DNA from: a virus
Virus record (IMG/VR): IMGVR_UViG_3300009706_000069
Span: 1-22,240 of that record
DNA: 22,240 bases
Reading direction: 5' to 3' (one strand)
Shown piece by piece: positions 2,058-17,582 of the stretch. The notes beneath the pieces were generated by a model, which worked only from the letters and a program-made list of their open reading frames with translations, did not search any database and was not told the origin of the DNA. A program made the translations under genes and the position numbers. Position 1 is the first letter of the stretch. Each line of letters opens with the position of its first letter.

Positions 2058-2442
2058 CCTACACAACGGCAGGGCACCTTACCCAAACTTGGAATTCAGC
2101 TGTGATTTCACTGCGGAGGAGTGGGATGCTCGTAGCAGAGATGCCGCTGCCCGTCTGGCTACTCATAATGGCAGTGTAGAACACATAGTGTCAGACCAAG
2201 TCGTGGAGCCCGATCACTACACCAGGTTTGTCATTGAACCCGTTAACTTCATCATGAAGAACCGACTGGAATTCTGGCAGGGCTCAGTGATCAAGTACAT
2301 CATGAGATGTGGTCACAAGGTCAACCAGGGTGAGACCCCCAAAGAAGCAGAGATAAGAGACCTCCAGAAAGCTACTAGGTATATCGAGATGAGAATAAAC
2401 CAATTAAGAGGAAAAGAACCTAATGACACTACTACCAAATGA
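2044..2442 (+). CDS. DUF3310-type protein, possible nucleotide-metabolism role
   Basis: A 132-residue protein whose C-terminal half (about residues 54-121) matches the pattern of the DUF3310/SaV-like family: PDHY, then IEPVNFI, a tryptophan (FWQGS), IKYIMRCGHK, and a final helix with DLQKATRYIEM. This family is frequent in phages, and the same domain type is found in T7 gp1.7, reported as a nucleotide kinase, so a role in nucleotide metabolism is plausible but not shown here. The N-terminal ~50 residues are not recognised. Its position immediately before the RNR, with a 20-nt overlap, fits a dNTP-supply role. The start at 2044 is supported by AGGAGG 7 nt upstream. Confidence 0.78.
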   Translation: MVELNLHNGRAPYPNLEFSCDFTAEEWDARSRDAAARLATHNGSVEHIVSDQVVEPDHYTRFVIEPVNFIMKNRLEFWQGSVIKYIMRCGHKVNQGETPKEAEIRDLQKATRYIEMRINQLRGKEPNDTTTK

Positions 2443-4162
2443 TATCCAATACATCTACGGCCCAAAGCTTACCCTCAGCAATGAGATAGACCAAATGAAA
2501 TACCGACAAACCGGGGAGGACTTCAGTGGTAAATGCACTCGACTTGCTAACACCCTAAAAGACAGTGATATGCACTTCGATGCCCTCCGAGAGATATTCA
2601 GAGAGATGAGGTTCCTACCTGCTGGTCGAGTGCAGAATGCCATAGGAGCTGCCCGCCAAACCACAGCGTATAACTGCTTCGTTTCCCAGGTTATCGAGGA
2701 CAGTATGGAGAGCGTCATGAGAGCCGCTACGGCGGCCTCTGAGACCATGCGGAAAGGCGGGGGCATTGGATATGATTTCAGTCGCTTAAGGCCCCGTGGT
2801 GACCTCATTAAGAGCTTAGACAGCCGTTCTAGTGGCCCTGTCTCGTTCATGGGTATTTTTGATGCTGTTTGCCAGACTATTGCGTCCTCTGGGCACCGCC
2901 GAGGAGCTCAAATGGGTGTCCTGAGAGTAGACCATCCAGACATCATGGAATTCGTCACAAGCAAGCAGAATTCAGACAAACTAACCGGCTTCAACATCTC
3001 TGTGGGTATTACAGATAACTTCATGAAATGCCTCATGGAGAAGACACCATTTGACCTTACCTTTGATGGGAGGGTGTATGACAGCATTGACCCTGTGAAC
3101 CTGTGGGATGTTATCATGAGAAGCACCTGGGATTATGCTGAGCCTGGCGTTCTCTTCATCGACACAATCAATGATATGAATAACCTCCAGTATTGTGAGA
3201 CTATTGAGGCAACTAATCCGTGTGGTGAGCAGCCCCTTCCACCTTACGGTGCATGTCTCTTGGGGAGCTTCAATCTTACTAAGTATATAAATAATAAGAT
3301 GGATGACGGCTTCTTAGTTATACTTAAGAGTTTCGACTACAAGCTGTTCTCTAAGGACATACATAATGTCGTGAGGGCCATGGACAACGTGATCGACAGA
3401 ACAATCTACCCGCTGCCCGAGCAAGAGAAGGAAGCCAGAGAGAAACGTAGGATGGGGCTAGGTGTCACTGGTCTAGCTAATGCAGGTGAAATGCTCGGTC
3501 TAAAGTATGGAACTATGCCTTTCCTAGTCTTCACTACACAAGTGCTCACTCAGCTCCGGGACGAGACTTACCACGCCAGTACACTCCTGGCTGAGGAGAA
3601 GGGCAGCTTCCCAGCTTTTGATAGGAACGAGTATATGAACAGTCCGTTCGTCAAGACACTCCCAGACTGGCTCCAGGAGACCATGTGGGAGAACGGCATG
3701 AGGAACAGCCACCTGACTTCTATTGCACCTACTGGGACCATAAGCATCGTTGCAGACAATGTGAGCTCTGGTATCGAACCACCGTATATGTTGTCGTATG
3801 ACAGGACAATACGGACTTTTGATAGTGACAGAGTTGAGACTGTGAGAGATTATGCTCATAACTTAGGTGTCGACGGTGTCACAGCTGACGAGTGCACAGC
3901 TCAGCAGCACCTAGATGTATTGGTCACAGCCTCTCGTTTTGTCGATTCAGCTGTGTCTAAGACGTGTAACATCGGTGATGACGTTTCCTATGACGACTTC
4001 AAGACACTCTACATGGATGCCTGGAGAAAGGGATGCAAAGGTATCACTACATTCAGAAAGGCTGGTAAACGACGTGGTATTCTCAATGCCACACCAGATG
4101 CAGCTGAGGTAGCAGAGGCTTGCTTCATCGATCCAGCGACTGGTCAGAGGACCTGTGACTAG
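2423..4162 (+). CDS. nrdJ: Class II (adenosylcobalamin-dependent) ribonucleotide reductase
   Basis: A 579-residue reductase making deoxyribonucleotides from ribonucleotides with a B12-derived radical. Visible motifs: YNCFVS with Cys85 (first redox cysteine), SSGHRRGAQMGVL typical of class II, NPCGEQPL with Asn265, Cys267 (radical cysteine) and Glu269, GACLLGSFNL with Cys278 (second redox cysteine), and APTGTISIVADNVSSGIEP starting at residue 435 (phosphate binding). The C-terminal tail has Cys567 and Cys578, which probably shuttle electrons from thioredoxin or glutaredoxin. No N-terminal ATP-cone is seen, and no small subunit (nrdB) follows, consistent with class II. The start overlaps the previous gene by 20 nt and has AGAGGAAA upstream. 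It needs adenosylcobalamin from the host. It ends the replication module; a 771-bp spacer follows. Confidence 0.95.
   Translation: MTLLPNDIQYIYGPKLTLSNEIDQMKYRQTGEDFSGKCTRLANTLKDSDMHFDALREIFREMRFLPAGRVQNAIGAARQTTAYNCFVSQVIEDSMESVMRAATAASETMRKGGGIGYDFSRLRPRGDLIKSLDSRSSGPVSFMGIFDAVCQTIASSGHRRGAQMGVLRVDHPDIMEFVTSKQNSDKLTGFNISVGITDNFMKCLMEKTPFDLTFDGRVYDSIDPVNLWDVIMRSTWDYAEPGVLFIDTINDMNNLQYCETIEATNPCGEQPLPPYGACLLGSFNLTKYINNKMDDGFLVILKSFDYKLFSKDIHNVVRAMDNVIDRTIYPLPEQEKEAREKRRMGLGVTGLANAGEMLGLKYGTMPFLVFTTQVLTQLRDETYHASTLLAEEKGSFPAFDRNEYMNSPFVKTLPDWLQETMWENGMRNSHLTSIAPTGTISIVADNVSSGIEPPYMLSYDRTIRTFDSDRVETVRDYAHNLGVDGVTADECTAQQHLDVLVTASRFVDSAVSKTCNIGDDVSYDDFKTLYMDAWRKGCKGITTFRKAGKRRGILNATPDAAEVAEACFIDPATGQRTCD
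3419..3449 (+). repeat. 31-bp dispersed repeat, copy 2 (inside RNR)
   Basis: This copy is near-identical to 1986-2016 (30/31) and in the same frame, encoding EQEKEARE at RNR residues 333-340, just before the conserved RRMGLGVTGLA segment. Confidence 0.9.
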
Positions 4163-4256: not shown

Positions 4257-4290
4257 GTCTGCAAAGACTCCCCCCCTCGATGCTACCTAA

Positions 4291-4318: not shown

Positions 4319-4380
4319 ACAGCTTATACTGGTGAAATCCTAGGTGTCTACCCTTATAGAGATTCCAGTTACTCTTATCA

Positions 4381-4583
4381 GATAACTTAAGAGTACTTAA
4401 GAGTACTTAAGAGTACTTAAGAGTACTTAAGTGGTCTAAGTATATACTAATAAGCAGAACAATTTTAATAAATACTAAGACAACTTAAGTTATACCTAAG
4501 ATACACTTAGGTTATACTTAGTATTTACTTAGGATAACTTAAGATACTTAAGATACACTCTGGATAACCTAAGATAACTTAAG
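4381..4583. repeat. Helically phased CTTAAG-type hexamer array
   Basis: Four perfect tandem copies of GAGTACTTAA occupy 4391-4430. Around and after them, CTTAAG or near variants (CCTAAG, CTTAGG, TCTAAG) recur with starts at 4386, 4396, 4406, 4416, 4426, 4435, 4484, 4495, 4506, 4517, 4528, 4538, 4547, 4568 and 4578. Steps are 9-11 bp, with two gaps that are near whole multiples of a turn. The 11-mer GATAACTTAAG occurs at 4381-4391, 4533-4543 and 4573-4583, so it bookends the array. Because each core is self-complementary, many hairpins are possible, for example 4494-4512 (7-bp stem) and the 10-bp palindrome at 4482-4491. Iteron-like protein binding or DNA bending at an origin or control region is the likely meaning; this is inference. 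Confidence 0.88.
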
Positions 4584-4709
4584 AGGCTGAGGTGGTTTAT
4601 TGTTTGTCGATATCCTTGTCCCGATCTGCAGACAACATAAAAAGACCTTATTCCGACAATTTTCAGAGGGCAAATGTCGCTAATGTCTAGGAACCAAAGT
4701 AGCCATGAC

Positions 4710-4736
4710 GGGCAACAGATAATATATCCGTTGCTC
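4710..4736. repeat. Imperfect hairpin in AT-rich stretch
   Basis: GCAAC (4712-4716) pairs with GTTGC (4730-4734), and after one mismatch GAT (4718-4720) pairs with ATC (4726-4728), with loop AATAT. G4710 can also pair C4736 around a G-T wobble. No T-run follows, so a terminator is unlikely. Confidence 0.45.
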
Positions 4737-4745
4737 TTAGGTATC

Positions 4746-4837
4746 TAATGATATCAATGACTTAGCTAATGAAATAATGATCTGGAATTCCACTACCCAT
4801 AAAAATGACCCCCAGGGCCTAATAATGACTTAATGAT
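4746..4837. repeat. Cluster of seven AATGA motifs
   Basis: AATGA starts at 4747, 4756, 4768, 4776, 4804, 4824 and 4832. TAATGAT occurs three times (4746, 4775, 4831) and AATGACTTA twice (4756 and 4824). All are on the same strand. The spacing is irregular and there is no open frame, so this is more like a set of binding sites than coding sequence. Confidence 0.6.
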
Positions 4838-4843
4838 TCCAAA

Positions 4844-4880
4844 AAGCCGGTAAAGGGTCGGGCTTGTTATTATTATTATT
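4844..4880 (+). terminator. Possible intrinsic terminator before the virion module
   Basis: AAGCC (4844-4848) pairs with GGCTT (4861-4865) and is followed by TGTTATTATTATTATT. The stem is only 5 bp and the loop is 12 nt, so termination would be weak. The position at the module boundary is what makes it plausible. Confidence 0.35.
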
Positions 4881-4933: not shown

Positions 4934-5608
4934 ATGGCTTTAGAAACTGGCACATACATCGATGATCTCGTTGCAACTAACCCAGCATCCACCGACGCCC
5001 TCTCAGCTGCCGACGACCACATCCGTCTGATCAAAAGCACCCTCAAAGCCACCTTCCCCAATATCACTGGTCCCGTCACTGGCACCCAGGCCATCTTAAA
5101 CACAACTTTCCCAACTGGCGGCATCATCATTTGGTCGGGAGCTGAAGCAGCTATTCCTACTGGCTGGGTCTTATGTAACGGGAGTAACTCTACACCCGAC
5201 CTTCGTGAGAAGTTTGTCATGGGGGCTGGGACAACCGCAGTTAATGCTACTGGGGGCACAAACAGCCTCACCATAGCCACTACGAACCTACCCTCGCACA
5301 CCCACGGCATCTCATTGACCTCTGGTGCTGGGGGCTCCCACACGCACTCAATCTCCTCAGATGGTGCCCACACACACAATATGACCTTCTACGCCCGTGG
5401 TGATGCTTTTGGAGGTTCACCAGCAATGAGCACCGTCGCTGGAACCAGTTCACGGGCAACAGAATCTGCTGGGGCACACACGCACACTATAGGCTCTGAA
5501 AGTACTCACACCCACACGATCTCAGGTACATCCGCAGCGACTGGTGGTGCTACTGCCATAGATAACCGCCCCTTATTCTTCTCCCTTTGCTACATCATGA
5601 AATCATAA
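4934..5608 (+). CDS. Tail fibre/needle protein with collar domain
   Basis: A 224-residue protein with the phage tail-collar architecture. The N-terminus (MALETGTYIDDLVATNPAST, then ADDHIRLIKSTLKATFPNI) is the common virion-attachment segment of marine phage fibres. The collar segment reads GGIIIWSGAEAAIPTGWVLC followed by NG and TPDLREKFVMGAG. The rest is rich in HxH motifs (SHTHG, SHTHS, AHTHN, AHTHT, THTHT); in T4 gp37 such motifs bind iron along a needle axis. It ends with DNRPLFFSLCYIMKS, the usual collar C-terminus. It probably forms a trimeric spike or fibre tip used in host contact. Start 4934 has AAAGGA 9 nt upstream. First gene of the virion module. Confidence 0.88.
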   Translation: MALETGTYIDDLVATNPASTDALSAADDHIRLIKSTLKATFPNITGPVTGTQAILNTTFPTGGIIIWSGAEAAIPTGWVLCNGSNSTPDLREKFVMGAGTTAVNATGGTNSLTIATTNLPSHTHGISLTSGAGGSHTHSISSDGAHTHNMTFYARGDAFGGSPAMSTVAGTSSRATESAGAHTHTIGSESTHTHTISGTSAATGGATAIDNRPLFFSLCYIMKS

Positions 5609-9492: not shown

Positions 9493-12400
9493 ATGCCAAA
9501 AACTTCAAAAGAAATAGGTAATTGGATTCTAAATAACGAGGCCCTTCAAGGTACTTCAGATTTTAACTTTGCAGTTAGCCAATTCAAACAGGCCAGAGAA
9601 CGCGAGACCAACCCATACCAAAACAAAGAGAACGTATACGCCGGCTCAGGTTCACAGCCAGCTATTGTCTCTGGTGTTGGGAATGCATTTAATGCCCTCA
9701 AACGCGGTTTGCATGGGCTTGGTAGTACAGTTGATCTAATAAAGTCTGGGTCTAAAATGAGCGATTACAATCGTTCTCAAGGATCAAAACAAGACATCTT
9801 AAAAGGTATGTTTGATAAGCAATTTGGTTCTACATATGGAATGCAGTGGGACCCAAGTTGGCAAACACCACAAGATGTTTTCAATGGCATCCAAGGACGT
9901 GCAGATGATATTGGTGTTACCAGTGTCGTCAATAGTCAGCTAATTAATTTTACAGAACGCTACAATAATATGACTGCGGAGTGGGAGAAGAACCAAGACG
10001 ATAGTGGAGCTGGTAAACTTAAAGATGCTATTACAAGTTTTCAAGACTATAAAGGACACTCGGATAAAAAAGCTGCAATAGACTCAAGTATAAGTGGTCA
10101 AGATTGGCAAAAAGTACACGCAGATAATATTAAAGAAGATGATAACAAAGAGACTGGCCTCAAAGGTTTCTGGAATGGAACCAAAACATTCTGGAGATCA
10201 ATTGGAGAAGACCCAACCGGTGCAGCAGCTTTTATAGCTGAGACTGCTATTGAAAGTGGGCCAGTAATGGCAGCCTCACTATTCACTACACTTCTCACAA
10301 GAAACCCAGTCTATGGTTCACTAGTTATGGCAACTGGAGCTGTTAGCCAAGAAGCTGGCCCAACCGCTATGGCGTATCTTCAAGAGCAAGGTGTTCCAAT
10401 GGAGACCAGAGAAGACGCTCTAGCTGTCCTTAGAAATCACGACCTATTGGCTGAAGCCAACCGCAAAGGTTTTGGCAAGGGCTTGGTTGTCGCTGCCTTC
10501 GAACTCTTAGGCCAGGCATCTGTCGCACGAATGTATTTTAAAGCAAATAAAGGTGCAGCTGTTGATCCAAGCTTACTTAGTAAGATTGTGACTAAAACAA
10601 AGACAGGAACCAAAAGCTCACTTATACAAGCAGGCACTGGTGGTGGCGGAGAGATATTTAGTCAACTTGCAATAGGTGAAGAGGTAGACGCTTCCGATGC
10701 CTGGATAGAGTTCTTAGCCGAGTTTGGAACTGCCCCTGGCGAGGCGGTTATTGCTGGAGCATCACTTACTAAAAACGCAATTAGATCACCATACACTGCT
10801 GACCCAACAGATGGCAGCTTAACCGGTGAACTTAAGGGGCACGAAGACTTAACCACTAATGAAACCAAAGCCTATTCCAGTTTAGCCTTAGAGCTTAATA
10901 AAATAGCAAAAGAGGGGGGCCTCGACAAAGTACCTTTTGATCTAATGGATATCGACCCACAATCAAAAAAAGGTGCGAAGACTGTAATTGATGACACGCA
11001 CAATAAGCTAGTTGGATTTATGAATCGCTATTATGGTGAGCTAACCGCAAAAGGTGGACCACTTAATAAAAAAGGAAAAACTGAAGCAGAACGTGACCTT
11101 ATTACGTTAGCACTAATTGCTAAGGCAGAAGGCCGTAACAAAGCAAAAGGGCAAGTTGCTAGTGAAAGTTATGACGCTCTAGAAGCCCTTGTTGGTAAAA
11201 CCAAAGAAGGCCAAAACTTAATCCGTACACTAATGCAACTAGACGCACTAACACAGCTAGACGGCAAAGGCCTTCAAGGTGGGCTGTCAGAGTTTACAGA
11301 TAAGTTCTCGATACTTGGAAGAGTGGGCGGTAAAGACTCCGGTTTCCCAGGAGCTACCGCAAGGCTAAAGCCTATTATAACCGGACTGGCTGCCGCGCAA
11401 ACTGCAGGTGTAAGTTTAATACCCCAGGCAATACTACCACCACTGGGTCGATATATTGACAAGAAACGCGGCACTTATTCTGTCTTAGACAAATACATAA
11501 AAGATAACATAAAAGGTGACCCCTTAGATGCGGCAACTGGCCCATCGGTAATTGCAGCCAGGGAACTTGAGCAGCAAACCAAGCAACGAACCAAACGCCT
11601 GGGTGACCTCAACAAAAGATTAGAAACATCTAGAGTTGATTTAGCTAAACGAGAAACAGCTAAATCTAGCTTTGAAAAAGCAGACCTAGCGTCACCAGGC
11701 AGCCCACAAGACGTTCTAGAGCAAGCTTTAGGAGTTAGGGAATCAGACCTTGGTCGTCAAGACTTTGAACCACTCATAGATATTACTCCGGTAGTTCTTG
11801 TAGATCTACTTGAGATTGTTAAAGCAGAGAATGAAACAAGCTTAAACAGCGATCTTCAGAAACAAGAGTTTTTAAAAGCAGTTGAAGAGTACCAAAAGTC
11901 AATCAGAGAAGGCGGTACTATTCAGAATGACATGCTTTCCCCGGTTATCCGAAAAGTTGTCAGTATGGCTGAGAAACAGGGCGTAATCAGAAGACGCACC
12001 ACAGCAAACTCACCTGGGCTAAATAACACACAGCTGGAAACCCCAGCAATCTCTCGAGGCATCGCAGACAACCAGAGAGTGCTCGCAGATTTAACTAAGA
12101 AAGCCAAAGAGAACTCATCAGTAGAGCCTTACAGAGCTCCTTTAGAGGAAGCACTAAACACCCTAGGATTAAACCTAGGAACTGACCCCGTAACAGCGGC
12201 TGTGGATGTCGTTACTAAAGCGGTAGCTGATGGTGTCCCAAATAAAGCTATCAATACCTACTTACGCCCATATGTTGATCGTATCATCAGACAGGCACTT
12301 CAGTCTAAAGCTAAACCACCAAGTTTACAGACTACAGGATTTGGTGCCGGTACAGATACCTCTGGGAGCTCAGTTCTAAATAAGGCACCCTTGAACATAG

Positions 12401-15400
12401 ACCCTAGCGTAAACTTTCCAAAACTACCAAACTTAGGTAATCTCAATAATTCCTTAAACACAGACACCGCACCTCGCATCAATGACGACGCAGGGGTAAT
12501 GCCGGGCTCCCAACCATCAGGTATACAGACTACAGGATTTGGTCGTAACACAGATGTTATAACACGCCAAACAGATATGGGTCGTATCAATCAGATCTCA
12601 GTAATGAGTGAGCAAGAACTCAGAGCCCTCACTGAGCAAGAGCTCCTGGCTATGACACCACCCGAATACAACGCCTATCTTAAGCGTCAGTTTGACTTAG
12701 CAAGAGGCGTCGATCCTAGCGTAAACTTCACCCAAGCCCCGGGCCTCACCCAGCTTGATAACACAGACACACCTCCAGTTATTAATCAGGATGGAACACG
12801 GTCAATGTCGGGCGACCAACCATCAGGTATACAGACTACAGGATTTGGTGTTGGCACAAATACCTCGGGAAGCTCAGTTCTAAATAGAGCACCGTTGAAC
12901 ATAGACCCTGACGTAAACTTCACCCAAGCCCCAGATCTCACTCAGCAAGTTTCTAACCTTGATAACACAGACACCCCACCAGTCATTGAAGATGACGACG
13001 GTACGCTTACCAGGAAATCTAAAGTCCCACCAATGTCCCTCGACGGCCCAGCATTAAATCAAATGCCAACGGCACTAGATATTCTTCCAGATGAGAATGA
13101 AGTCTCTGCAATGCGAGATCCAAATTGGAAACCGGAAGTAAAAAGATCCAAAGAGGCAGCAGCTCAATTTCTTCAAGATCGCTGGGAAAAAGCTACAGGT
13201 CGAACTACTCCATATGAGTACACAGAAGAGAATGTACCTGTAATTGCTGATATCATGGTTGCAGAAGCTATGAGAAACTTGGAATCTGATGGCAATGCTA
13301 TTAGATGGTATGATGAAAAGATTAAATCAGCTAAAGCAATTGTAGAGTTGGTCGAGCCTAGAGTTACCCAATCAGCAGAATCTGAGGCAATGTTTGATTT
13401 TGCACTAGCTGTAACTTCAAATGGACAAGCCGTAGAAAACAACTTCTCAATGGCACTCGAAGTCTTCCGAACTGGTATGGATACTGGGCGTATGCCTGAG
13501 GATTTCACTAAAGGTGGCAATAGGGCCGCTGCTATGCGAGCAGCCTTCAAGTTCTACAATGCATATCAAGACAGCGTTCCAGATATACCTATTCAAGAAT
13601 TTCTGGACTGGGATTATACAGTCAAAGAACTTAAAGTCTGGGTTGCAGAATTTAATAAAAATAATGGAACCAAAGTTAAAGTCCCGGCCTCTGAAACTGT
13701 AGATACTTTTGTAAAAGGATCATACATCTTAGGGCCAAAAATAGGCCAAGGATTCTATCAAAACATCCGAGGAAACTACGATCCTTTAACGATGGATCTG
13801 TGGTGGATGCGTTCTTGGAATAGAATGGTTGGTCGCCCTTTTATGCCTAAGAAGACAAAAAAAGCTATGGCGATAAAAAGAGATTCAATTGTCACTGAGA
13901 TCAAGAAGGGTGGAAAAGTTGAGAACCAGCTTGTTAATGAGACACTAAAAACAACAGGTGAGACTAAAAAAGGTCTTTATAAAGATCCAGAGAGAATGGA
14001 CGTTTTCATCAAAGTTTTAGATAAACGCTGGAACAAATACTACAAAGATTACCAAGACGCTAATAACAAAAAGAACCCACCGAAGCCTCAATTGTTTAAA
14101 TCTACTGGAACTTATGTACTAAATAGTTCCCCTCAGATGCAGGGAGAACCAACAGGCCCAGATCGACCATATATGAGAAAAGTTGTCAAAAAAGCACTTG
14201 ATGATCTTATGCAACGTCAAATCCATATAAAGACAGCAGATTTTCAAGCTTTGATGTGGTATCCAGAGAAGTTATTGTATAAGAAGATGGGTGTATCACC
14301 TGGTAACGGGTCAGATACAGACTATCAGGACGCTGCAACACTATTAGCAAAGAATGAAGGGATAACAGATGGACAAATTGAAGAAGCACTCCGCAACGCA
14401 AACGGAGACGGAGCCGTCAATAATCGACCAAGTGCCCCCGGAGAAGATGGGGGAGTTTATCCGGGGCCTAGTGGAACTGGGACGAGCTCGCAAGGCGGCC
14501 CAGGAAACCTTACAAGGCAATCCAGGGGACCAGCCCTTACCAGCCCGGAAAGAAATCAACCGAGGACCAATCCTCCGAGCGTACGACGCCTAAAGCCATA
14601 CGTCGAGCCAGCTAAAAAGGCTTTCGAGATTGGAAAGAAGGGTGGTAAATACGAAGACGGTATTGGCACTTTAGGTGAAGCTCTAGAGCTTGCGACGGCA
14701 CTTAACCTCACAGTCACATTCCTAAATGAGATGCCAAAAGGAGAGTTTGGCTCATACACTGGCTCTCCAGATTCACGCGATGCGGATGGTGTTACCAGGT
14801 CAACCACTAGGGCAAAAGTCAGGGTCTTAAAACAGGGATCTGACCACCCAAAATTTGGGGGCACTATAAATAGCATCCAGGAGTTTACAAGTCTAATGCA
14901 CGAGATTGCACATGGTCTCGCAATCGAACGCACAGATAGAGTACCCATCGCACAATACCGAAAAGCAGAGAACCCATTAGTTCTTGCTAAACAGGCACTG
15001 GAGAGCGTTAAAGTTGGTTCTTTTGAGGATTTCATTTTAGACGAAGTCGAATCTGCTGAAACTCAAACAGAAGTACTCCAAGAGATTATAAACCTTCAAG
15101 AAAACATTGACGTCCAAATAGCTAAGCGTCCAGAGCTTGGTACTAAGGGTGTCCGTGATATGCGCGAAATATCAGAGTACATAAAAACTGACCCAGAGCT
15201 TCGGGCTAAGTATTCCGACGATAGAATACAGGATTCTAACAACAAGTTTAGAAGAACGTACTTGCGTACAGTACCTGAGATGGCGGTAGACCCACTGTGG
15301 GTTTACTTAGTTAATCCAAAGCTTCTCAAGAAGGCTGCACCACATACTGCCCGGGCGATCCGAAAGACCTTTAATAACTTCGGTGGACCCAAGCAGCCTG

Positions 15401-15555
15401 TAACTTTCTACAGCTACCCACTCGCCACCATTATGGCAATCGTTATGGGTGTCTTAGCTAATCTTGAGGACGAAGAAGAGAAACGTAACGCCCAGCCACC
15501 ACCGCCCCCAGGAGCTCTATCCCCAAATATGAACATGGGTGCCCTCAGTGCGTAA
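9493..15555 (+). CDS. Giant (2020 aa) internal virion/ejection protein with HEIAH metalloprotease-like motif
   Basis: The largest gene, starting at ATG 9493 with ACGGAGG about 11 nt upstream. Regions by residue: 1-210 helical; 235-300 hydrophobic Ala/Gly-rich (AAAFIAETAIESGPVMAASL and ATGAVSQEAGPTAMAYLQEQ), a possible membrane-interacting part; 680-930 coiled-coil-like; 946-1150 a proline/Asn/Thr-rich region with a triplicated QTTGFG motif; about 1215-1460 a conserved-looking block (TSNGQAVENNFSMAL, GPKIGQGFYQNIRGNYDPLT) of the sort I recall from giant multi-domain phage proteins; 1640-1705 a Gly/Pro linker; then a C-terminal domain with LMHEIAHGL (His1803, Glu1804, His1807), the HExxH signature of zinc metallopeptidases. 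Glu1929 (VPEMAVDP) is a candidate third ligand. A hydrophobic segment follows at about 1975-1990, then a PPPPP tail. Likely ejected with DNA to open the envelope; enzyme activity is inferred. Confidence 0.82.
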   Translation: MPKTSKEIGNWILNNEALQGTSDFNFAVSQFKQARERETNPYQNKENVYAGSGSQPAIVSGVGNAFNALKRGLHGLGSTVDLIKSGSKMSDYNRSQGSKQDILKGMFDKQFGSTYGMQWDPSWQTPQDVFNGIQGRADDIGVTSVVNSQLINFTERYNNMTAEWEKNQDDSGAGKLKDAITSFQDYKGHSDKKAAIDSSISGQDWQKVHADNIKEDDNKETGLKGFWNGTKTFWRSIGEDPTGAAAFIAETAIESGPVMAASLFTTLLTRNPVYGSLVMATGAVSQEAGPTAMAYLQEQGVPMETREDALAVLRNHDLLAEANRKGFGKGLVVAAFELLGQASVARMYFKANKGAAVDPSLLSKIVTKTKTGTKSSLIQAGTGGGGEIFSQLAIGEEVDASDAWIEFLAEFGTAPGEAVIAGASLTKNAIRSPYTADPTDGSLTGELKGHEDLTTNETKAYSSLALELNKIAKEGGLDKVPFDLMDIDPQSKKGAKTVIDDTHNKLVGFMNRYYGELTAKGGPLNKKGKTEAERDLITLALIAKAEGRNKAKGQVASESYDALEALVGKTKEGQNLIRTLMQLDALTQLDGKGLQGGLSEFTDKFSILGRVGGKDSGFPGATARLKPIITGLAAAQTAGVSLIPQAILPPLGRYIDKKRGTYSVLDKYIKDNIKGDPLDAATGPSVIAARELEQQTKQRTKRLGDLNKRLETSRVDLAKRETAKSSFEKADLASPGSPQDVLEQALGVRESDLGRQDFEPLIDITPVVLVDLLEIVKAENETSLNSDLQKQEFLKAVEEYQKSIREGGTIQNDMLSPVIRKVVSMAEKQGVIRRRTTANSPGLNNTQLETPAISRGIADNQRVLADLTKKAKENSSVEPYRAPLEEALNTLGLNLGTDPVTAAVDVVTKAVADGVPNKAINTYLRPYVDRIIRQALQSKAKPPSLQTTGFGAGTDTSGSSVLNKAPLNIDPSVNFPKLPNLGNLNNSLNTDTAPRINDDAGVMPGSQPSGIQTTGFGRNTDVITRQTDMGRINQISVMSEQELRALTEQELLAMTPPEYNAYLKRQFDLARGVDPSVNFTQAPGLTQLDNTDTPPVINQDGTRSMSGDQPSGIQTTGFGVGTNTSGSSVLNRAPLNIDPDVNFTQAPDLTQQVSNLDNTDTPPVIEDDDGTLTRKSKVPPMSLDGPALNQMPTALDILPDENEVSAMRDPNWKPEVKRSKEAAAQFLQDRWEKATGRTTPYEYTEENVPVIADIMVAEAMRNLESDGNAIRWYDEKIKSAKAIVELVEPRVTQSAESEAMFDFALAVTSNGQAVENNFSMALEVFRTGMDTGRMPEDFTKGGNRAAAMRAAFKFYNAYQDSVPDIPIQEFLDWDYTVKELKVWVAEFNKNNGTKVKVPASETVDTFVKGSYILGPKIGQGFYQNIRGNYDPLTMDLWWMRSWNRMVGRPFMPKKTKKAMAIKRDSIVTEIKKGGKVENQLVNETLKTTGETKKGLYKDPERMDVFIKVLDKRWNKYYKDYQDANNKKNPPKPQLFKSTGTYVLNSSPQMQGEPTGPDRPYMRKVVKKALDDLMQRQIHIKTADFQALMWYPEKLLYKKMGVSPGNGSDTDYQDAATLLAKNEGITDGQIEEALRNANGDGAVNNRPSAPGEDGGVYPGPSGTGTSSQGGPGNLTRQSRGPALTSPERNQPRTNPPSVRRLKPYVEPAKKAFEIGKKGGKYEDGIGTLGEALELATALNLTVTFLNEMPKGEFGSYTGSPDSRDADGVTRSTTRAKVRVLKQGSDHPKFGGTINSIQEFTSLMHEIAHGLAIERTDRVPIAQYRKAENPLVLAKQALESVKVGSFEDFILDEVESAETQTEVLQEIINLQENIDVQIAKRPELGTKGVRDMREISEYIKTDPELRAKYSDDRIQDSNNKFRRTYLRTVPEMAVDPLWVYLVNPKLLKKAAPHTARAIRKTFNNFGGPKQPVTFYSYPLATIMAIVMGVLANLEDEEEKRNAQPPPPPGALSPNMNMGALSA
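12328..12930 (+). repeat. Triplicated coding repeat inside the giant virion gene
   Basis: An 18-nt core encoding QTTGFG occurs exactly at 12328, 12526 and 12832 (residues 946, 1012 and 1114). Copies 1 and 3 continue with TSGSSVLN and APLNIDP; copies 2 and 3 are both preceded by PSGI. The companion element DP(S/D)VNF followed by an N/DNTD(T/A)(P/A)P ending occurs three times. The copies differ by scattered substitutions, so this is an older, diverged tandem duplication in a flexible linker. Confidence 0.85.
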
Positions 15556-16054
15556 AAGAGCAGCCCCAAAAGTAGCCAAAGAGCCACAGAAGGCTCCAAA
15601 GAATAACTACTTCAGCACACTCATGCTGACCGAAGAAGGTCGAGCCTTGCGACGGGAGTGGTCCACTAAAAAGAGGAAAAACCCTGGCAGACCTATGGGA
15701 ACACCAGATGGATATCGTTTGTCTGAAATCAAGCCCATCCGCGCAAAGATCAAGAAAGAAGCTAGAAAGGTTATTAAGATAATGGCAAAAGAATTTAACA
15801 TTGATGATGAGTACTCAAAAGAAGCACTCACAACAGCAGTAGAGGTCCTACGCTCCCCAGGTGAAACTAGAGAACGACTGGCTGCCGCTCGCTTAGTATT
15901 AGATTTCTGTCGATCAAAACCAGTAGCAAAATCCGACATCACCGTTGGAAAAGCAGAGGACTTCTTAGCGTCACTTCTGCCACAAATCGAAGATGAAGAT
16001 GGAGCGGAAATTGGACAAGAGATTAGTAAAAATACGGAAAGAACTATTAACTAA
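15539..16054 (+). CDS. Terminase small subunit (putative)
   Basis: A 171-residue basic protein directly before the large terminase. The first ~60 residues are Lys/Arg/Pro-rich (RKRAAPKVAKEPQKAPKNN; KKRKNPGRPMGTPDGY), probably contacting DNA. The helical core LTTAVEVLRSPGETRERLAA followed by ARLVLDFCRSKP matches the small-terminase pattern of a helix, a short loop, R..AA..(I/V)LD and GKP-like end. It recognises the phage DNA and loads the large subunit (known role). The start is GTG: 15539 is given, but GTG 15548 is as good and reduces the overlap with the giant gene from 17 to 8 nt. No clear Shine-Dalgarno is seen, so translational coupling is likely. Family assignment rests on position and this motif. 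Confidence 0.72.
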   Translation: MPSVRKRAAPKVAKEPQKAPKNNYFSTLMLTEEGRALRREWSTKKRKNPGRPMGTPDGYRLSEIKPIRAKIKKEARKVIKIMAKEFNIDDEYSKEALTTAVEVLRSPGETRERLAAARLVLDFCRSKPVAKSDITVGKAEDFLASLLPQIEDEDGAEIGQEISKNTERTIN

Positions 16055-17582
16055 CTTTAAGTTTTACTCAAACGCAGCACTTAAGATCAGAACTAAAACC
16101 GGAAAGATTGCCCCCCTAAAACTTAATAATGCCCAGGAGATCTTAGACAAAGCTGTCTCTAAGCAAGTTGCAGCAGAAGGTAAAGTCCGAATAATCATCC
16201 TTAAAGCACGACAACAGGGCCTCTCTACCTATACTGGTGGATACTTGTACCACTCAGTGTCACAACGCCCCGCCTGTAAGGCTATGGTTGTCACGCACCA
16301 CGCAGATAGTACCAGAGCCCTCTTTGATATGACCAAAAGGTTCCATGAGCACTGCCCGGACATCCTAAAGCCCAGGACTAAGTATAGCTCGAGGCGCGAG
16401 TTAAACTTTAATATCTTAGACAGCTCTTTTATTGTCGCTACAGCTGGAGGAGAGAGCATTGGAAGAGGAGAAACTTTAACTCACGTCCACGCCTCAGAAC
16501 TTGGCTTCTGGCAGAAGAGCACAGCACTAGATAACTGGAATGGGCTGACCCAAGCCGTTCCAAACGCCCCTGGCACATGTATTTTCGTCGAAAGTACAGC
16601 TAATGGCGTAAATGGCGTGTTCTATGATCTATGGCGAGGAGCTGTAGACGGAAAGAATGGCTACGTTCCAGTTTTTATACCTTGGTTCGCTGACCCGGAA
16701 TACCGGGAAGGAGTACCAGAGAGTTTCGAGAGAACTCCCGAAGAGGAGGATATAGCTAAGCTGTATAATCTCGACGATGGACAGTTGATGTTTAGAAGAC
16801 ACAAGATCGCTCAGAATGGCATTGATCTATTCAGACAAGAGTATCCATCGGAACCAGAGGAAGCCTTCCTGACTACAGGTCGGCCTGTGTTTAACCCAGA
16901 GCAGCTACATGAGAAAATAAAGACAACACGCGACCTAAGTGAACGCCTGGCCCTCGAGGGTGAGGAGTTCGTAAACAACGCCCGAGGCGAGCTGTCTACG
17001 TTTAGACCTCATGTCGACGGAGAACAGTACGTCATAGGAGCTGATGTCGCTATGGGGATACGAAATGGGGACTATTCGGTTGCCCAGGTCCTCGATAGTA
17101 AGAAGAGACAAGTTGCTATCTGGCGAGGCCATGCCCACCCGGACTACTTTGCCCAGGTTCTTTTTGCACTTGGAGAGTACTACAATGAAGCATTTATATG
17201 TGTCGAGAATAACAGCCACGGAATACTAACGTGCACCAGACTCGGCAAAGATCTAGCTTATCCTAATTTCTACACTGAGGTGCAGCACGACAAGCTAACA
17301 GACCGTGAAACGGTGAAACTAGGTTTCTCAACTACAGTAAAAACTAAGCCCCTGATCATAGATCAACTTAGAGCCTCCATGAGAAAAGAAGAGATTGAGC
17401 TAAACTGTAAGACAACACTTAGAGAGATGATGACTTACGTCGTCACTGCGTCAGGATCTATGCAAGCAGAATCTAGCTGCTTCGATGACACAGTTATCTC
17501 GTTAGCTCTAGCGAACCACGTTCACACTGGAGCTTGGACACCAATAGAAAGCACATCCGAATTTTACATAGAAGTGATTTAA
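15993..17582 (+). CDS. terL: Terminase large subunit
   Basis: A 529-residue packaging motor with ATPase and nuclease halves. The Walker A-like loop is LKARQQGLST (Lys71, Ser78, Thr79), a variant lacking the classical GKS/T that is common in this terminase group. Walker B with the catalytic glutamate is THVHASELGFW (Glu169), and ESTANG follows as a coupling-type motif. The RNase H-like nuclease shows YVIGADVAMG (Asp351), GDYSV (Asp360), FICVENNSHG (Glu405) and CFDDTVISLALA (Asp498, Asp499). It cuts concatemeric DNA and drives it into the head through the portal. The start at ATG 15993 overlaps the small subunit by 62 nt; ATG 15999 or TTG 16011 (with GGAG 8 nt upstream) are alternatives. The portal follows after one base. 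Confidence 0.95.
   Translation: MKMERKLDKRLVKIRKELLTNFKFYSNAALKIRTKTGKIAPLKLNNAQEILDKAVSKQVAAEGKVRIIILKARQQGLSTYTGGYLYHSVSQRPACKAMVVTHHADSTRALFDMTKRFHEHCPDILKPRTKYSSRRELNFNILDSSFIVATAGGESIGRGETLTHVHASELGFWQKSTALDNWNGLTQAVPNAPGTCIFVESTANGVNGVFYDLWRGAVDGKNGYVPVFIPWFADPEYREGVPESFERTPEEEDIAKLYNLDDGQLMFRRHKIAQNGIDLFRQEYPSEPEEAFLTTGRPVFNPEQLHEKIKTTRDLSERLALEGEEFVNNARGELSTFRPHVDGEQYVIGADVAMGIRNGDYSVAQVLDSKKRQVAIWRGHAHPDYFAQVLFALGEYYNEAFICVENNSHGILTCTRLGKDLAYPNFYTEVQHDKLTDRETVKLGFSTTVKTKPLIIDQLRASMRKEEIELNCKTTLREMMTYVVTASGSMQAESSCFDDTVISLALANHVHTGAWTPIESTSEFYIEVI

Follow-up and report, generated by a model that had tools for sequence, protein, structure and literature searches.

A helically phased repeat array in an uncultured T7-like virus, probably its family's version of the repeats at T7 genome ends

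Repeats and cut sites at the ends of T7-like genomes

Short repeats at the ends of the T7 genome have been known for decades and, to our knowledge, have no agreed function. We refer to them as SRL and SRR, and our comparison rests on the T7 sequence itself. The T7 concatemer junction contains ATCTGTT, a class II pause and termination signal of T7 RNA polymerase (PMC11617373). T7 RNA polymerase that is paused at the junction interacts with gp18 and gp19, and packaging then starts (PMC3276506). Assembly turns T7-like genomes with terminal repeats into circles in which the ends lie in the interior (PMC10438801, PMC3350473). In SF6 and SPP1, bent DNA is selected by the small terminase, which forms a ring of HTH domains with weak specificity (PMC4737164).

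In T7, T3, K1F, SP6 and Syn5, the terminal repeat is followed immediately by ATCTGT(T). With a caret marking the right edge of the repeat, the sequence is GTCCCT^ATCTGTTA in T7 and T3, which is like the box described below, TCTCT^ATCTGTA in K1F, GGGCT^ATCTGTTCG in SP6 and CCCC^ATCTGTTCG in Syn5. In gh-1, CTATCTGT occurs at and beside the junction. Terminal-repeat lengths were read from the sequence for T7 and are annotated for T3 and gh-1; for K1F, SP6 and Syn5 we used presumed lengths. The edge in P-SSP7, for which the repeat length was taken from PMC3350473, is AAGCG^ACCTGTTG, a degenerate form (ACCTGTT).

Significant arrays are present in the terminal spacers of T7 (period 13 bp), T3 (12 bp), SP6 (12 bp), HTVC019P (12 bp), YIMV22061 (11 bp) and MedDCM-OCT-S35-C6 (10 bp), the ends of the last two being deduced from gene order. 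In the terminal spacers of gh-1, Syn5, phiKMV, LUZ24, tf and P-SSP7, arrays were not significant. CACCAGG and CCACACAAAGC arrays lie in the terminal spacers of YIMV22061 (L293 14700-16310) and MedDCM-OCT-S35-C6 (L294 29200-29300); we know of no description of either.

The array and its surroundings in the window

The window is a stretch of 22,240 nucleotides (positions 1-22,240 of IMG/VR record IMGVR_UViG_3300009706_000069), and comes from an uncultured, probably marine, T7-like virus of bacteria. No nucleotide relatives of the window were found among annotated phages. Its virion genes are about 30% identical to those of LUZ24-like phages, with homologous portal and virion proteins. In relatives, the upstream module is T7-like: it encodes a T7-type RNA polymerase, a gp2.5-like single-strand-binding protein, endonuclease I, a T7 primase-helicase, a polymerase and an exonuclease, and also a tyrosine integrase. 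One contig that matches the ribonucleotide reductase and the tail protein of the window at 99-100% has the T7-type RNA polymerase and the integrase, and thus both hold for the window's own species. Judged from gene content, the genome is a hybrid of T7-like replication genes and LUZ24-like head genes. The family is probably temperate, integrating at various tRNA genes.

Among the virion genes, one (9493-15555) encodes a protein of 2,020 amino acids that is almost without relatives in annotated phages. Its matches, to Limnohabitans phage DC33 and to two metagenomic phages, are all weak. Phage DC33 (PQ492659, L292) is filed under Inoviridae, but has a 39-kb genome with a tailed-phage-like layout, and is probably misclassified.

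The original prediction described a run of CTTAAG-type hexamers, spaced 9-11 bp, that is marked at both ends and inside by one 11-mer. The positions, the 11-mers and the spacing were all correct. The array is non-coding and is housed in the spacer between the ribonucleotide reductase gene and the tail collar gene (Table 1). There are 16 CTTAAG-like cores at 4386-4583, of which 13 are strict CYTARG cores (starting at 4386, 4396, 4406, 4416, 4426, 4484, 4495, 4506, 4528, 4538, 4547, 4568 and 4578) and three are degenerate (4435, 4474 and 4517). Successive cores are 10, 10, 10, 10, 9, 39, 10, 11, 11, 11, 11, 10, 9, 21 and 10 bp apart; thus, the array consists of two blocks with a gap between them. 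The 11-mer, GATAACTTAAG, is found in the window only at 4381, 4533 and 4573.

Table 1. Positions of the array, the elements around it and the terminase genes in the window
Feature	Position	Strand	Basis or remark
Ribonucleotide reductase large subunit gene	2423-4162	+	Last gene before the region
Putative promoter for the T7-type RNA polymerase of the phage, GAAATCCTAGGTGTCTACCCTTATAGAGA	4334-4362	+	Motif recurrence; reads into the array
Array block 1: five CTTAAG units spaced 10 bp and a degenerate core (CTAAG)	4381-4440	.	
AT-rich interruption of the array	4441-4473	.	Contains AATAAGCAG, kept in close relatives
Array block 2: CTTAAG, CCTAAG and CTTAGG cores every 9-11 bp	4474-4583	.	
Box GTCCCG^ATCTGC (family consensus GTCCCGATTTGT)	4618-4629	+	Family alignment
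Direct doublet CAAATGTC-G-CTAATGTC (family (T/A)AATGTC)	4671-4687	+	Family-conserved
Hairpin or dyad CAACAGAT-AATAT-ATCCGTTG	4713-4733	+	Compensatory changes across the family
Conserved CAATGACTTAGC	4755-4766	+	Family alignment
26-bp element ATGATTCCAAAAAGCCGGTAAAGGGT	4833-4858	+	In most cases about 215-227 bp beyond the box; TTG/TTA repeats follow (to 4881)
Tail collar/fibre protein gene	4934-5608	+	First gene after the region
Candidate small terminase gene	15539-16054	+	Position only; product basic and conserved; overlaps the large terminase gene
Terminase large subunit gene	15993-17582	+	

The periodicity is far above that of shuffled sequence, as had been expected. Whereas 13 strict cores fall within 210 bp of the window, 5,000 first-order Markov simulations of the spacer gave at most five. 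Self-matches within the array are highest at lags of 10 (0.52) and 11, and the core positions give their largest resultant at a period of 10.2 bp for the whole array (R = 0.76) and of 10.4-10.5 bp for the right block (R = 0.90). The claim that all cores lie on one face of the DNA is approximately true; the left block drifts slightly against B-DNA because its period is exactly 10.0 bp. The further suggestion that the self-complementary cores extrude as cruciforms found no support, because the palindromes are only 6 bp long and many relatives keep the period but lose the exact palindrome.

The two blocks and the 39-bp interval resemble parC of plasmid R1, where the repeats likewise form two blocks. 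One could imagine plasmid-type iterons that bind a replication initiator, or a partition site with ParR/parC-like repeats of 10-11 bp. We give this idea almost no credence: the early and replication proteins that we scanned included no recognisable partition protein, integration at tRNA genes is probable for these phages, and a T7-type replication module needs no initiator.

It had also been stated that no phage element of exactly this form was described. This is wrong: T7, T3, SP6 and other T7-like phages have arrays with periods of 10-13 bp by their terminal repeats, and thus the element in the window is of a known kind. The left-end array of SP6 (CCTTAGT, 12 bp) shares the CTTAG word with the window, but differs in sequence and period. 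The left-end array of pelagiphage HTVC019P (CCACA-AGC words, 12 bp) is likewise on the scale of a helical turn, with another sequence and period. In both phages, the flanking genes are not homologous to those of the window. The terminal repeats of LUZ24 and tf, which share the head-gene lineage with the window, have clusters of CTTAAG and CTTAGG a few hundred bases away, but differ in having no significant periodicity and no ATCTGTT-like edge; we know of no RNA polymerase of their own in these phages. These small clusters, with cores about 11-12 bp apart, lie near the right ends (LUZ24 44995-45075, tf 45700-45740; L187, L188).

Upstream of the array lies the motif GAAATCCTAGGTGTCTACCCTTATAGAGA. 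Allowing up to four substitutions, 19 of 26 family loci have it 104-380 bp ahead of the box. The same-species contig has it immediately before the RNA polymerase gene and again next to an att-like tRNA fragment; in each of two other relatives (G004 and G006), there are four copies in non-coding DNA. Because it recurs in front of the RNA polymerase gene and other genes, it is promoter-like, and a reading of it as the left-end signal of a terminal repeat was dropped. From this distribution we read it as the probable promoter of the phage polymerase. Host sigma-70 promoters are no more frequent in the spacer than expected by chance, and the two terminator-like sites there are weak. The array was also considered as attP. 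Att-like tRNA fragments are present upstream of the integrase gene (L304:4045-4378; spacers of G006, G004, G014, G021 and G020), and because they sit in the integrase-side spacer, attP was ruled out.

A non-coding region of some 300 bp that is conserved family-wide, more so than the array, starts about 35 bp after the array. The box in it is GTCCCG^AT(T/C)TGT throughout the family, with ATTTGT in most relatives and ATCTGC, not ATCTGTT, in the window itself. Like the T7 concatemer junction signal, the box (GTCCC.AT(T/C)TGT) follows a phage promoter motif and lies next to a short-repeat array. It differs from the T7 signal by a G for T before AT and a T for C inside, and the window copy ends in GC. 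The strongest family box, GTCCCGATTTGTTC, agrees with GTCCCTATCTGTTA of T7 at 11 of 14 positions, for which the chance across the conserved region is about 0.02. When genomes were scanned with a weight matrix built from known cut sites, the box came first in none of those searched. Taken alone, this resemblance is modest; it gains weight from the position of the box beside the array and behind the promoter motif. We propose that the box is an RNA polymerase pause site and the right-hand terminase cut, which is predicted between 4623 and 4624. T7-like phages have a left-end signal, (C)CCCC(A/G)TAGG, some 25 bp in from the left end; no consistent match to it was found. Its only candidate is a C-run at about 4268-4275 that is not conserved in relatives, and the left cut was not located.

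The arms of the hairpin downstream of the box covary, with 34 double-changed cells compared with 10 in shuffles and none of 500 shuffles as high. It has a GAT-N5-ATC base, with the compensatory changes in the outer arms. By this measure, it is an RNA or DNA structure under selection. The 26-bp element was tried as a repeated promoter and rejected, as it has no second strong match in any genome searched.

The RNA-like hairpin with compensatory changes and the element near the tail gene that has no second copy lie between the phage promoter motif and the tail operon. The region could thus also be a leader that regulates the late (tail) transcript, in which the array, with the hairpin and TTG repeats, would control transcription or translation and have no packaging role. 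We think that this is unlikely. It would explain neither the helical period that is common to T7-like terminal arrays nor the cut-site-like box, and an Rfam search found no family.

The array across the family

Close relatives have the array, as the original prediction expected, and their flanking genes are conserved. Among near-identical contigs, the 10-bp unit is present in 4-7 copies, and two close contigs have an extra 30-bp duplication in block 2. In distant relatives (51-62% identity in the adjacent virion protein), an array occupies the same place with other words, 10-11 bp apart: CTGAGG, CTAAGG, CATGGG, CTTAGG and CTGTGG. Together with CTTAAG, these are the cores seen across the family.

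Of 20 non-redundant family members, 10 have a significant array directly upstream of the box, whose best lag is 9-12 bp or roughly double; in the remaining 10, there is no array or there are only degenerate words. Thus, the array is common without being universal, and is not essential in that form. Upstream of the box, no hexamer is more over-represented than CCTAAG/CTTAGG, found in 13 of 20 sequences where 2.1 are expected, or in 10 of 17 (1.7 expected) when three AT-rich close sequences are left out. The array region is the longest non-coding gap in most long contigs. In contigs with an array (G021, G018, G017 and G014), no 10-11 bp periodicity elsewhere in the contig is stronger.

Changes in copy number among near-identical genomes, and the lack of a significant array in half of the family, are what one would expect if a functionless tandem repeat had grown by replication slippage in a non-coding spacer. 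This seems very improbable to us, since arrays of unrelated sequence arise at the same place by the box in divergent relatives, where their spacing stays near one helical turn and the CCTAAG word recurs, and since no other place in the array-bearing contigs scores near the array.

The drifting core and the spacing of about one turn beside a fixed cut or pause box suggest, more tentatively, a packaging (or origin) site that is recognised by its period and not by its sequence. A ring- or filament-forming phage protein would read the helical phase together with weak, CYNNRG-like contacts, and whole units would turn over fast. We consider this possible, though less likely than not.

The region may also have another function. 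The window's array is AT-rich and has the promoter motif directly upstream, and the family encodes a T7-type polymerase, a single-strand-binding protein and a primase-helicase. T7 terminal promoters can act as origins. The region may be a replication origin of the T7 kind, in which RNA polymerase transcripts prime the leading strand and the array aids opening or binds replication proteins, possibly alongside packaging. Cumulative GC skew, which had been put forward as a check for replication initiation, peaks near the region in the window and in two relatives (G006 and G020), but it mainly follows the coding strand (G023) and is of no use as origin evidence. In addition, the arrays of GC-rich relatives are not AT-rich, such origins need no helically phased repeats, and the box would be left unexplained. 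We regard an origin as rather unlikely. In G023 (L181/L182, L081), the whole replication module is inverted relative to the structural genes; with this inversion, the layout at the array region would be divergent, as in LUZ24.

The long family contigs are circular permutations of one another and, like assembled T7-like genomes, have their putative ends in the interior. Contig ends were tried as a proxy for physical ends and discarded, because their positions are uninformative; the contigs stop inside repeats, probably for reasons of assembly.

A proposed packaging junction before the tail genes

Based on these results, we propose a model in which a T7-like temperate phage has its concatemer junction and packaging-initiation region at 4334-4860, with the array as the counterpart of T7 SRL/SRR. 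We hold this model to be probable, though well short of certain. Late in infection, the phage's T7-type RNA polymerase would start at the promoter motif, transcribe across the array and pause at the box. The paused polymerase would help terminase to cut the concatemer just before AT(C/T)TG, as described for T7, and the physical ends of the genome would thus be formed here.

The second part of our model concerns the array itself. Along roughly one face of the helix, the phased cores would present a series of contact sites to an oligomeric DNA-binding protein, the likeliest being the small terminase, and the bound protein would wrap the DNA or hold it next to the cut. The SF6/SPP1 small terminase is a precedent for such wrapping; by analogy, the small terminase may recognise the array by its shape and phase, with sequence counting for less. 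The pac sites of SPP1 and SF6 resemble the window in having repeated DNA elements near the cut, but these are headful phages with another repeat length, and no homology was shown between their small terminase and the window's candidate. This candidate had no Pfam, PHROG or PDB match, and its AlphaFold model (mean pLDDT 72) gave no fold match; for this reason, its role is inferred from gene position only. The original prediction had favoured cooperative protein binding at an origin or regulatory region. A regulatory region on which protein assembles is compatible with our results, and that reading is supported in part.

Like SRL/SRR of T7 and T3, the array is a regular run of a short word in non-coding DNA beside an ATCTGTT-like site, with a promoter motif upstream and a T7-type RNA polymerase in the phage. 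The cores are also akin, as the family's CCTAAG/CTTAGG compares with CCTAAAG and CCTAAGG in T7. The layout is different. The T7 array has a period of 13 bp, lies mainly to the right of the cut and belongs to a region behind terminase, whereas the array in the window has a period of about 10.3 bp and a CTTAAG/CTTAGG core, and lies to the left of the box, inside the putative repeat, in a region before the tail genes. An argument against the junction model is that arrays are not universal at T7-like ends, as those of gh-1, Syn5, phiKMV and P-SSP7 are not significant. Because it would work like SRL/SRR but is laid out differently, we call the system a variant: most likely, it is a variant of the short-terminal-repeat and concatemer-junction system of T7, and the array is probably this family's version of the repeats at T7 genome ends. 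The site before the tail genes, the hybrid genome and the conserved period with a drifting core are unusual.

In sum, our model predicts the location of the genome ends for an uncultured, probably marine, temperate group of T7-like phages. The junction is predicted before the tail genes, in phages that pair T7-like replication with LUZ24-like head genes; if this is true, the early genes would lie in the middle of the genome, unlike those of T7. This metagenomic family, whose arrays often retain the period as the core drifts, beside a promoter motif and a fixed, cut-like box, offers natural variants for testing which proteins read such arrays.
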